Program-made: the position numbers and the translations under genes
Notes under the pieces: generated by a model
Databases searched by the model: none
What the model was told of the DNA's origin: nothing
The model's input: the letters and a program-made list of their open reading frames with translations, nothing else
Source: a virus
Direction: 5' to 3' (one strand)
IMG/VR virus record: IMGVR_UViG_3300006920_000023
Location: 1 to 40,539 of that record
Length of the DNA stretch: 40,539 nucleotides
Shown: piece by piece, positions 22,019 to 29,193 of the stretch
Layout of the letters: each line of letters begins with the position of its first letter
How positions within the stretch are numbered: the stretch's first letter is position 1

Positions 22019-22194
22019 CGATTTGCCTCCTGCCGATAACCGGCATCGTTTGTGCGGTTGCTGCTTAGGAGTGCGGCTGCGCTGTCTACAGCGGCACACA
22101 TCAGTTTTTCACGCTCATTGAGCTGCTTGTGCGCTCGGCGTTTGTTTAGTGCGCGCTGTACCTGCTTCTTGGTGAAAGTGTTGGTGCGTCGCAT
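21913..22194 (-). CDS. Small basic protein of unknown function upstream of terS
   Basis: 93 residues from the ATG at 22194 with GAGG about 8 bases upstream. The first half (RRTNTFTKKQVQRALNKRRAHKQ...) is strongly basic and helical with no membrane segment. Its 3' end overlaps terS by about 106 bases, which is long, so either the gene is real with an overlapping tail or only the first part is meaningful. It occupies the slot where lambdoid phages often encode Rz, but it lacks Rz topology. Confidence 0.4.
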   Translation of the reverse strand: MRRTNTFTKKQVQRALNKRRAHKQLNEREKLMCAAVDSAAALLSSNRTNDAGYRQEANRCLHSRTRTMKQRVSNIFSMVVTKARHFVSRIHTR

Positions 22195-25769: not shown

Positions 25770-27180
25770 CAATGCCCCCTGACATATCGCTGAATGAATC
25801 TTCTTGGCTTGGGGCGACGTATCCACCGGCAATGTCTCTAAAGCGGCTGTATTCAAGCTGTGAGCGCAGGTAGATGGTTTTTATCGGGCCATTGCGCTGC
25901 TTGCGAATGATAGCCTCTGCGACGCCTTTCTGGTTCGTGTTCTCGTTGTAGACCTCATCGCGGTAAGTCATGATGATGATGTCGGCGTCTTGCTCAATTG
26001 CGCCTGATTCCCGAAGGTCGGACATCACCGGGCGGCGGTTGTTCTTTGGCCGACTCTCGACCGATCGATTCAACTGGCTTAGTGCAATCACAGGGCAACC
26101 AAGAACACGCGCGGCCGCTTTCATGTTGCGGGAGATACCCGTCATGCGCTGCGTACTGCCCTCTTCGCTCTTATCGGAGAAAAGCTGCATGTAATCCACG
26201 ACAACAAGCTCTATTTTCCTGCCGATGGTGTTGGATAATTTGCGGCACTGGCTCAACATCTGCGTACTGCTGATGGTTGTATCATCGAGGATGTACAGCG
26301 GCTTATCCTTGATTTTTGAGGCCGCTGCAGTCAGTCCCGGCCAATCATCATCGTGTAATTTTCCCGAGCGTAGGCGCCCATGCGGAACACTCCCAAGGCT
26401 CGAGAGATTGCGAAGGCTTAACTGCTCCGAAGGCATCTCGAGGCTAAACACGACTACAACGTGATCTTTAAGTGCGGCGTTCTCTGAAATGTTCATCGCC
26501 AAGGTTGTTTTGCCCATCGAAGGCCTGCCGGCCACTACCACAAAGTCGCCAGGGGATAGCCCGCACGTTGCCTCGTCAAGATCCTTGAAGCCTGTCTCGA
26601 GCCCGATAATCTCGCCCTTGTGCTGAAACCTGTGGTCGATACCCTCGATGGTCTTGAGCATGATCTGGTTGATATGCGTCAGCTCGTTTGTTTCCCTGAT
26701 CTGAATATCGGAGGTTAGCGTTTGCGCCTGATCGATCTTGCCTTGCGCCTCCTCAGAGCCAAAGCCAATCTCGGCAATCTCGTACCCGGTGCGAATGAGT
26801 CTTCGGCTTACTGCCCGATCTCGGATGATATTGGCGTAGTGCGCAGCATTGCTTGAGCCACGGCCATTGGTGAGGATATCGGTTAGGTAATCAACGCCTC
26901 CCGCATCGTTTAGCTGGTCTGCCCTGTCCAGTGCAGCAATCAGCGTCACCGCGTCAATGGGGAACGACTGCAGCGCCATGGCCTGAATTTGGCGCCAGAT
27001 CAAAATATGCTCGTGCCTGAAAAAATCTTCATCGGTGAGCCAATCGACTTCGTACAAGATTTTATTGCTCGACACCACCGCGGCGATCAAGGATTGCTCG
27101 GCATCGACCGAATGCGGGGGCGTCTTGAGGCCCGCTATCGGAGCTGCAGGCGCTTTCAGGCTTTGTATGGCTGCGCTCAT
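25762..27180 (-). CDS. dnaB: Replicative DNA helicase, DnaB-like
   Basis: 472 residues. The N-terminal DnaB domain covers 22-125 (PHSVDAEQSLIAAVV...). The RecA-type ATPase has Walker A GRPSMGKTT at 218-226 and Walker B LVVVDYMQLF near 325-334, followed by the SQLNRSVE and RESGAIEQDAD motifs. Unwinds the phage origin 5' to 3'. The phage thus brings its own helicase (as P22 gene 12 does) rather than lambda P. ATGA overlap with the upstream initiator gene. Confidence 0.95.
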   Translation of the reverse strand: MSAAIQSLKAPAAPIAGLKTPPHSVDAEQSLIAAVVSSNKILYEVDWLTDEDFFRHEHILIWRQIQAMALQSFPIDAVTLIAALDRADQLNDAGGVDYLTDILTNGRGSSNAAHYANIIRDRAVSRRLIRTGYEIAEIGFGSEEAQGKIDQAQTLTSDIQIRETNELTHINQIMLKTIEGIDHRFQHKGEIIGLETGFKDLDEATCGLSPGDFVVVAGRPSMGKTTLAMNISENAALKDHVVVVFSLEMPSEQLSLRNLSSLGSVPHGRLRSGKLHDDDWPGLTAAASKIKDKPLYILDDTTISSTQMLSQCRKLSNTIGRKIELVVVDYMQLFSDKSEEGSTQRMTGISRNMKAAARVLGCPVIALSQLNRSVESRPKNNRRPVMSDLRESGAIEQDADIIIMTYRDEVYNENTNQKGVAEAIIRKQRNGPIKTIYLRSQLEYSRFRDIAGGYVAPSQEDSFSDMSGGIDE

Positions 27181-28046
27181 ACGGCTTTGCTCCTCTGGCT
27201 GTTCTCGGCCTGCTTCCCGGTTGTTGTGAGCTCGTAAACCCCGTCAGAGTTCACCCACCAGAGCTTTAGATAGTTTCCGCGAATGTATTTGCGGAACGTC
27301 ATTCGCCAATCTTTCTGGCGCCGGTTCTCGCTGATCATCCTGTCTCGAAACTCGCGCCATGCCAGTGTCAAAAAATCATCGGGTATTCCAGCGCCGGTTG
27401 CGTACTTGAAAATCGGGTCGCCAGGAGGGAGCACTTTTTCATCGTTCGCCTTGCACTGCTCGATGAAGGTTTTGATTTCAATGGCTGGTTTCTTTCGGTT
27501 TGGTTTGTCATCCGAAGGATTTTTACCAGAAGTCCCCTTTGGGGATTTAGGGGTATTAGTAATTGGTTCTTGGTTATTGGTTATTGGTTCTTGGTTAGGT
27601 GGCGTTTCGTGCTCTTTTATTAACGCATCGATCACGCTCGTCCACGCTCCGTGCGTTTTCGATAACGGAGCGTGCTTTATTTCATCACGCAGTTGATCGC
27701 ACGCTTTAGCAAGCTCTTCTTTTTTCTGCTTCTTAGATTCTCTGGAAATGGCGATCAGGCGATTTTGTATGCCGCTGATCTTGAACATCTCCAACTCTTC
27801 CTTAACCCTTGATTGCACATAGGTTCCGTCTTCTTGGAGCTCGAAAAACCGCGAAAGCACAAAGCGCACAGCTTGTTCTTCTTCTGGCGTACTGGCCCAG
27901 GTCCACTCAAACGCCTCACTCTCCGTGGGGAAGCGTTCACGGTCGTAGCACGCATCTAGCAAGAGCGTGTACGCACCGTGCTGTAACATGGACAGTCGGC
28001 CAGCTTTCTTCGCGTAATCGCCAAGATTTCGGGTGTAGTAATGCAT
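27177..28046 (-). CDS. DUF1376-type replication initiator with internal iterons
   Basis: 289 residues. The N-terminus (YYTRNLGDYAKKAGRLSMLQHGAYTLLLDACYD, 3-35) is the DUF1376 signature of phage replication proteins. A linker (about 150-185) repeats NQEPITN and is Pro/Ser/Lys rich. The C-terminus (190-270) is a DnaT/DnaC-type helical domain (ADDEKVLPPGD..F.YA...G). Gene order (CII-like, this gene, DnaB) equals lambda cII-O-P and P22 cI-18-12, so it should bind the origin and load DnaB. The origin probably lies inside it (27563-27597). Confidence 0.8.
   Translation of the reverse strand: MHYYTRNLGDYAKKAGRLSMLQHGAYTLLLDACYDRERFPTESEAFEWTWASTPEEEQAVRFVLSRFFELQEDGTYVQSRVKEELEMFKISGIQNRLIAISRESKKQKKEELAKACDQLRDEIKHAPLSKTHGAWTSVIDALIKEHETPPNQEPITNNQEPITNTPKSPKGTSGKNPSDDKPNRKKPAIEIKTFIEQCKANDEKVLPPGDPIFKYATGAGIPDDFLTLAWREFRDRMISENRRQKDWRMTFRKYIRGNYLKLWWVNSDGVYELTTTGKQAENSQRSKAV
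27563..27597 (+). repeat. Five tandem heptamers TTGGTT(A/C): candidate replication origin iterons
   Basis: Five adjacent perfect copies of TTGGTTC or TTGGTTA (order C, A, A, C, A) within the replication initiator gene. Lambda and P22 origins are likewise iterons inside the initiator gene. They translate as an NQEPITN repeat because 21 bp equals three heptamers. Origin function is inferred. Confidence 0.65.
27643..27674. repeat. 10-bp perfect inverted repeat beside the iterons
   Basis: CACGCTCCGT (27643-27652) and ACGGAGCGTG (27665-27674) are separated by 12 bases, inside the initiator gene 46 bp from the iterons. A third partial copy (CACGCTC) lies at 27633. Possibly part of the origin or an RNA hairpin. 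Confidence 0.55.
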
Positions 28047-28048
28047 GA

Positions 28049-28204
28049 TTACCGCTCTTCCTCATCCATATCGATGTTGCGCTTGGCGCAGCGCGCGCAA
28101 ATTTGAGTGCCTACAACCCTCCTCTGCCACTCGCTGTCGATCTCATCGCCGCAACCGGGAGTAATGCAACAGTCGGCGCTTTCTTGGATTTTTTCGATGT
28201 CCAT
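28049..28204 (-). CDS. Small zinc-ribbon protein
   Basis: 51 residues from the ATG at 28204 with AAGGAG upstream. Cysteines in the CC...C and CxxC arrangement (CCITPGCG and CARC) suggest zinc binding of the DksA/TraR type without its coiled coil. Its end (GAGGAAGAG) supplies the ribosome binding site of the next gene. Function unknown. Confidence 0.6.
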   Translation of the reverse strand: MDIEKIQESADCCITPGCGDEIDSEWQRRVVGTQICARCAKRNIDMDEEER

Positions 28205-28225: not shown

Positions 28226-28421
28226 CCCGGCCCTGTGACTGCTCACATTGATGGGCCGGGGTGATGCGTAGCCATTGCAAAGACACGCTAATGACTAGGG
28301 GTTTAGCTACACATCCGGCTGCGCTCTCTACACGGCACTTTGGGCCGTGTTGTTGGCTGCAACCTCACCTGACTTGCAGATCAGGCAGAGCGCATGCGGA
28401 TATGCCCTACCTTCGGGTAGG
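28226..28421. ncRNA. Strongly structured noncoding segment; candidate RNA (lambda oop position)
   Basis: A gene-free 230-bp gap between the CII-like and zinc-ribbon/initiator genes. Hairpin 1: CCCGGCCC (28226-28233)/GGGCCGGG (28253-28260), stacked on TGTGA/TCACA with a 4-base loop. A three-way junction: TGCGCTCT (28320-28327)/AGAGCGCA (28387-28394) enclosing ACACGGC (28330-28336)/GCCGTGT (28344-28350) and CCTGA/TCAGG (28368-28385). Last hairpin: CCTACC-TTCG-GGTAGG (28406-28421), a UUCG-type loop on the plus strand. Strand, promoter and function are unknown. It is the leader of the downstream minus-strand genes if transcribed from PR. Confidence 0.5.
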
Positions 28422-28431
28422 TCGATGTTTA

Positions 28432-28824
28432 CTAAAAAAATCCCTTAGCCTTGGCTTGGTCTAGCACTCCCTTCATTCCTTTGAAGCAATCAATAAATTC
28501 ACGCTGCAATCTAGCCTTATCATCCTCTGGCTCGATCGGAGTTGGGGTCGTATAATCATGCTGCGCGCAGTCGTATTCAATTGAGGCGCATCGGCCCTTG
28601 GCGCTCTTTGCCATGTCCTTCAACACTTGATGCTGATACACATCAAACTTCTGTGTGTGATTAGGATCTATTGAGTTTCGAAGGTGTCGCTCGGCTGCAT
28701 CAGGACTGTTTTTGAACTTCTCAGGATAGAGTTTCTGCGCTACTGCAGCCCATCCTCCGGCGTCATAAACTTCACGCTCTAATGCGGCTCTAAGGCTTGT
28801 GGCTTCTAGTTCTTGCTGTTCCAC
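28432..28824 (-). CDS. CII-like transcription activator (phage CP76 family type)
   Basis: 130 residues from the GTG at 28824 with AGGGGA seven bases upstream. The N-terminal half (LRAALEREVYDAGGWAAVAQKLYPEKF...AERHLRNSIDP) matches phage CII/CP76 regulatory proteins, with a helix-turn-helix around 22-60. The C-terminus contains the PEDDKARLQREF helix typical of the family. Lies after cro and the tR1-like terminator, exactly the cII position. Expected role: activating repressor and integrase promoters to favour lysogeny. Confidence 0.75.
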   Translation of the reverse strand: MEQQELEATSLRAALEREVYDAGGWAAVAQKLYPEKFKNSPDAAERHLRNSIDPNHTQKFDVYQHQVLKDMAKSAKGRCASIEYDCAQHDYTTPTPIEPEDDKARLQREFIDCFKGMKGVLDQAKAKGFF

Positions 28825-28854
28825 TTTGCTATCCCCTAAAACAATTAAGAAAAA

Positions 28855-28889
28855 TTCGTAAGAATTCGTAAAAAGTTTCTGCGCACAAT
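28855..28889 (+). promoter_or_regulatory. Candidate CII-activated promoter (pRE-like)
   Basis: TTCG-N6-TTCG at 28855-28868 reproduces the TTGC-N6-TTGC spacing of lambda CII sites (10-bp period), followed by a possible -10 CACAAT at 28884-28889. It lies between cII- and cro-like genes, reading rightward through cro antisense toward cI, as pRE does. The binding specificity of this protein is not known, so this is an architectural match only. Confidence 0.45.
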
Positions 28890-29150: not shown

Positions 29151-29193
29151 ATAATACCCACGCGTATTATCTCAGTCAATACTCAAGAGTATT
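29151..29193 (-). promoter_or_regulatory. PR promoter with operators OR-A and OR-B
   Basis: PR on the minus strand: TTGACT (29174-29179), 17-bp spacer, TATTAT (29151-29156). Two operators AATAC-N6-GTATT, at 29153-29168 (over -10 and spacer) and 29178-29193 (touching -35), are 25 bp apart. Binding would block PR. For the divergent repressor gene only weak promoters are visible (TTATCT/TATTAT at 29167-29195, or TAAAAT at 29205-29210), consistent with an activated maintenance promoter. Confidence 0.85.

Follow-up and report, generated by a model that had tools for sequence, protein, structure and literature searches.

The window, a 40,539-nt stretch of viral DNA (IMG/VR record IMGVR_UViG_3300006920_000023), carries on its minus strand, in this order, a Cro-like regulator (29179-28916), a gene in the position of lambda CII, a structured RNA, a 51-aa open reading frame (ORF), a DUF1376 replication (primosomal) protein (27177-28046) and DnaB (27180-25762). 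The CII-position gene (28432-28824), so called because it lies between the Cro-like regulator and the replication genes, belongs to phrog_24214, a family of unknown function. The 51-aa ORF (28049-28204), which is the first gene past the leader, has four cysteines, a Shine-Dalgarno sequence (SD) AAGGAG at 28216-28211 and a weak match to a DksA-like zinc-finger family (phrog_54, E 0.007). The CII-position gene stops at 28432 and the ATG of the 51-aa ORF is at 28204, which leaves 227 noncoding bases; within them lies the segment considered here (28226-28421; 196 nt), flanked by these two early genes of a bacterial virus. A consensus scan of the region detected a candidate early promoter for the minus-strand operon (TTGACT-17-TATTAT, 29151-29179), where such matches show no excess over chance, and nothing promoter- or terminator-like on either strand of the segment. 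Just 5' of the CII-position gene, a direct repeat ATTCGTAAGAATTCGTAA (28854-28875; TTAC-N6-TTAC on the minus strand) resembles the lambda CII sites, and one relative, L209, has TTCC-N6-TTCC at the matching place. We rejected a tie between the RNA and the family of the CII-position gene, for which we found one weak relative only, with no RNA after its gene.

A preliminary description had recognized three structures in the segment, and all of them are present and above chance. Folded at its full 196 nt, the minus strand reaches -92.0 kcal/mol (z -6.28; reached by 0 of 200 shuffles) and the plus strand -83.6 kcal/mol (z -3.05; 1 of 200); the palindromic helices allow both strands to fold well, and the minus strand, along which the early operon runs, is clearly the better-folding one. 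When the whole window was scanned with a correction for composition, minus-strand positions 28261-28450 ranked second in structure among 190-nt stretches, the most structured stretch lying near 46-235 and containing a tRNA-like piece and a long palindrome. On the minus strand the segment begins with a 6-bp hairpin (28406-28421); this is the UUCG-capped hairpin of the preliminary description, although UUCG forms the loop on the plus strand only and the minus-strand loop reads CGAA. The core domain follows (28309-28405; 97 nt, z -5.6, 0 of 200 shuffles), in which the long stem P1 consists of a 9-bp helix P1a (28405-28397/28317-28309), a 2x2 internal loop (CA/GC; 28396-28395/28319-28318) and an 8-bp helix P1b (28394-28387/28327-28320) that closes two hairpins, hairpin a (28386-28367) and, after a junction, hairpin b (28350-28330). 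The 75-nt junction reported earlier (28320-28394), with its 8-bp stem closing two hairpins, is therefore real, and its stem is longer than described, the 9-bp extension P1a having been overlooked. Also overlooked was the complementarity between CUGCAA in the loop of hairpin a (28379-28374) and UUGCAG in the junction (28362-28357), which gives six Watson-Crick pairs (duplex -6.1 kcal/mol) and has a chance of about 0.009 when loop and junction are shuffled; an H-type pseudoknot (28357-28379) is thus possible within the core. The linker that follows (28261-28308) has several alternative pairings, and we detected no significant structure of its own in 28261-28309 when its fold was compared with shuffles (z -1.3). 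The segment ends in the hairpin reported as a 13-bp stem with a 5-base bulge (28226-28260), which indeed has 8 + 5 bp and a 5-nt bulge (z -5.1 on the minus strand, -4.3 on the plus strand) and stops 9 nt before the SD; inspection of its sequence revealed no U-tract. In local folds this SD, which serves the 51-aa ORF, is about half unpaired and not clearly sequestered.

The claim that the segment is noncoding also holds, as no gene was found that accounts for it. A plus-strand ORF of 67 aa with a GTG start had no relative in viral contigs, and a minus-strand GTG ORF (28246) merely extends the 51-aa gene, which has its own AAGGAG and ATG at 28216-28211 and 28204. Neither blastn against phages and plasmids nor scans of viral contigs for patterns and peptides recovered a sequence homologue of the segment, and there was no match at the segment to Rfam or tRNA families. 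When 45 related viral records and some 800 genomes of Burkholderiales and Pseudomonas were searched with a model built from the single sequence (R1), only chance matches appeared; two of these, in L082 and L092, were rejected as a simple hairpin and repetitive coding DNA, respectively. Within the window we found no iterons or direct repeats at the segment and no second copy of it, and a 24-nt near-repeat at 22074-22097 was dismissed as chance, as it lies inside coding DNA. In L002, which has the closest replication protein by best segment (77%), the CII-position gene stops 10 bases before the next small ORF and leaves no room for such an RNA, and an element of this kind is likewise absent from L129 (73% best-segment identity in the replication protein) and L131 (70%). 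Its absence from these nearest relatives indicates that the segment is an addition, or has been lost in the relatives.

We also folded the regions upstream of about 160 related replication genes, many of them redundant. Strong structures abutting the start codon occur in a minority of these, and three kinds recur. The first is the known int-alpA RNA (RF02996), which lies directly before the replication gene of L007; look-alikes recognized by eye in L005, L008, L010, L044 and L153 all score under the gathering threshold. Like the window element it is a structured RNA before the same replication gene, but the fold and sequence differ, and RF02996 had no match in the window at the Rfam gathering score. 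The other two kinds, which we call types A and B, had no Rfam match at gathering scores in those of their loci that were scanned.

Type A, an element of about 105 nt upstream of the DUF1376 gene (for instance L018:2364-2498), has six distinct members (L018, L040, L043, L057, L061 = L064, and L063 = L066 = L079). In the MAFFT alignment of these members (A5), with the structure drawn from L018, 98% of pairs are kept and 13 pairs show two-sided changes. A small hairpin loop (GUGAGAA, GUGAUAA or GUGGAAA) pairs with a strand inside the 23-bp P1, and this pseudoknot is fully (100%) paired and has two positions that covary; a second long-range pairing was seen as well (e.g. UGGACAG/CUGUCCA in L061), for which the alignment is too poor for counts. 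SD-like purines, GGAG or GAGG, lie in the 3' strand of P1, which stops 0-6 nt upstream of the start of the replication gene.

Type B is a three-way-junction element before replication genes, followed by a terminator-like U-tract, with five distinct members (L004:2404-2482, L060:2410-2484, the same as L051, L067:2411-2486, L194:901-978 and L215:938-1011). Two-sided changes occur at 18 of 27 pairs across the five members, and a pseudoknot of the form UUGRYN/NRCCAA (UUGGCG/CGCCAA, UUGGCA/UGCCAA, UUGGUG/CACCAA, UUGACC/GGUCAA) is 100% paired with three covarying pairs, counts that are biased towards structure because the alignments (A11 and A12) were laid out manually with gaps written as N. A model made from L060 and L067 alone recovered L004 (E 4e-8), L194 (E 6e-9) and L215 (E 9e-13). 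P1 is followed by 4-8 U, and in four of the five members 14-18 nt separate its end from the replication start. In L194 another gene intervenes between leader and replication gene, and the L215 leader precedes an unannotated ORF that matches replication-protein profiles of another family, so type B tracks replication genes rather than one protein family. The deposited phage record (MW202462.1) does not annotate this replication-protein gene (L215:1027-1728) and has instead an ORF antisense to the leader. A search of 274 genomes from the same class as a Pseudomonas genome with a type-B model (R2), run without a positive control, yielded no match. Long-stem leaders with U-tracts after them were also observed in L138 (1382-1460), L178 (1208-1301) and L198 (635-698), each with an upstream segment complementary to the interior (AUGACGG/CCGUCAU, GUGGAAAG/CUUUCCAC and UUCGCAC/GUGCGAA, respectively); they look like more variants of the plan of types A and B, though they were not aligned to either.

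The window element shares with type B its place before replication genes, its sense strand and its layout, which in both runs P1a, AU in the internal loop, P1b, UCUG, hairpin a, CCAAC, hairpin b and AGAG. The defining two-helix P1 with an AU-containing internal loop that closes two hairpins is present in the window, and its CAUGCGCUCUG...AGAGCGCAG resembles CAUGCGUUCUG...AGAACGCAG of L194. When the whole window was searched unfiltered with a model made from type B only (R3), the segment ranked first with a full-length, sense-strand match (15.6 bits, E 0.06; next 9.9 bits), yet unrelated control stems span 12-16 bits (L138 15.9, L140 15.6, L205 15.5), and we therefore dropped this score as proof of membership. 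Resemblance to the type-B consensus, judged against shuffles that preserve structure and with registers maximised, gave p 0.00035 (0.19 for the reverse complement); the mapping was chosen after inspection, and since the likeness was noticed first and several families were compared, we estimate that a fair p is nearer 0.003. The upstream hairpin with the UUGG loop is absent from the window, where the longest complement between upstream sequence and interior is 4 nt, and so is a U-tract after P1, where AGCUAAACC is found instead. The hairpins of the window are longer than those of type B, and a possible internal pseudoknot stands in place of the UUGG/CCAA pairing. Because its model score is matched by unrelated stems and the UUGG hairpin and U-tract are missing, we do not file the element as a type-B member and regard it as a candidate, possibly a divergent relative of this class.

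On these results the structured segment is real and noncoding, and we take it to be a leader RNA of the replication block, on the sense strand. Among the three roles suggested for it previously, a leader or riboswitch-like element of the replication operon appears to fit best, because of the sense-strand bias of the fold, the placement and the covarying leaders at the same place in relatives, and cis regulation is the best-supported function we can propose for it. We lean towards reading it as a cis-acting leader of the replication operon that may be a divergent relative of type B. The leftward early mRNA would carry the segment, and its minus strand would fold into the long P1 closing a multi-branch junction, which is probably pseudoknotted and has two further hairpins on its flanks. 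Sitting just 5' of the ribosome-binding site of the 51-aa ORF, first in the replication block, the fold may act in cis on replication-gene expression, either as a protein- or ligand-responsive element or through processing and stability, and it may have lost or replaced the UUGG hairpin partner and terminator U-tract of type B. The put RNA of phage HK022 offers a partial parallel: it comprises about 70 nt in two stem-loops, with putR about 270 nt past the PR start (PMC9378689). Both are structured elements of early transcripts, and put acts in cis, whereas the window element has a 97-nt multi-branch core about 720 nt past the candidate promoter.

Other explanations are less probable to differing degrees. 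The segment could be a passive feature of the mRNA, that is, a processing site (e.g. for RNase III) that also provides stability or insulation between the CII-position gene and the replication genes without being regulated. Long stacked helices (9 + 8 bp and 8 + 5 bp), a stable hairpin 9 nt before an apparently unsequestered SD, the lack of both a U-tract and SD occlusion in the window and the absence of the element from the nearest relatives are all consistent with such a feature, but a multi-branch junction, pseudoknot potential and a type-B-like signature exceed what an insulator needs, and the leaders that relatives carry there appear regulatory; we consider this explanation unlikely, though a serious competitor. 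It is rather improbable that the RNA fold is the by-product of an element that works as DNA, for example a piece of a replication origin or a palindromic mobile repeat that was inserted recently: the lack of the segment in the nearest relatives, palindromes that fold on both strands and adjoining replication genes would suit such an element, but the strand asymmetry favours RNA, neither iterons nor a second copy accompany it, and no copy was found in phages, plasmids, viral contigs or the roughly 800 genomes. Lambda oop, whose position the segment was correctly said to share, is transcribed from a promoter of its own, stops at tO and has a 52-base overlap with cII (PMC5869508). A comparable plus-strand antisense RNA pairing with the 3' end of the CII-position mRNA is very improbable here. 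In its favour are the location, with the CII-position gene on one side and the replication gene on the other, and the UUCG loop on the plus strand, but the opposite strand is clearly better folded, the CII-position gene lies outside the structured part, and no promoter- or terminator-like site for the plus strand lies nearby, so that the antisense suggestion of the preliminary description was not upheld.

Control of replication start in temperate phages has mostly been described in terms of promoters, repressors or antisense RNA. The more surprising result is that related phages have two covarying classes of leader in this place. Termination and SD occlusion are the two usual expression platforms of cis-acting leaders, and types A and B look regulatory for this reason: P1 formation would stop transcription in type B and ribosome binding in type A. 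Returning to the cis-acting leader that we favour for the window, it is conceivable, as a tentative extension, that this element belongs, in diverged form, to an undescribed class of pseudoknotted leaders. Such leaders would precede replication-initiation genes in diverse tailed phages and turn these genes off, type B through intrinsic termination and type A through SD occlusion, with the window using some other expression platform. If this is true, a recurring leader with a covarying pseudoknot and a terminator or SD-hiding stem would constitute a testable RNA switch of phage replication, to which the window element would add a form with neither terminator nor SD-hiding platform.

Two further features were observed at the beginning of the window. 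Positions 67-135 on the minus strand resemble the 3' part of a tRNA, with an anticodon stem-loop bearing GUG and a TpsiC arm GGUUCGAGCCCC; ARAGORN predicted no complete tRNA there, and the piece is probably what remains of a tRNA-His where a prophage attachment site lies. The motif GTTAGGAAA recurs within positions 1-240, which also contain a long palindrome (157-238; z -7.8); these are perhaps arm sites for a recombination protein or a bidirectional terminator.
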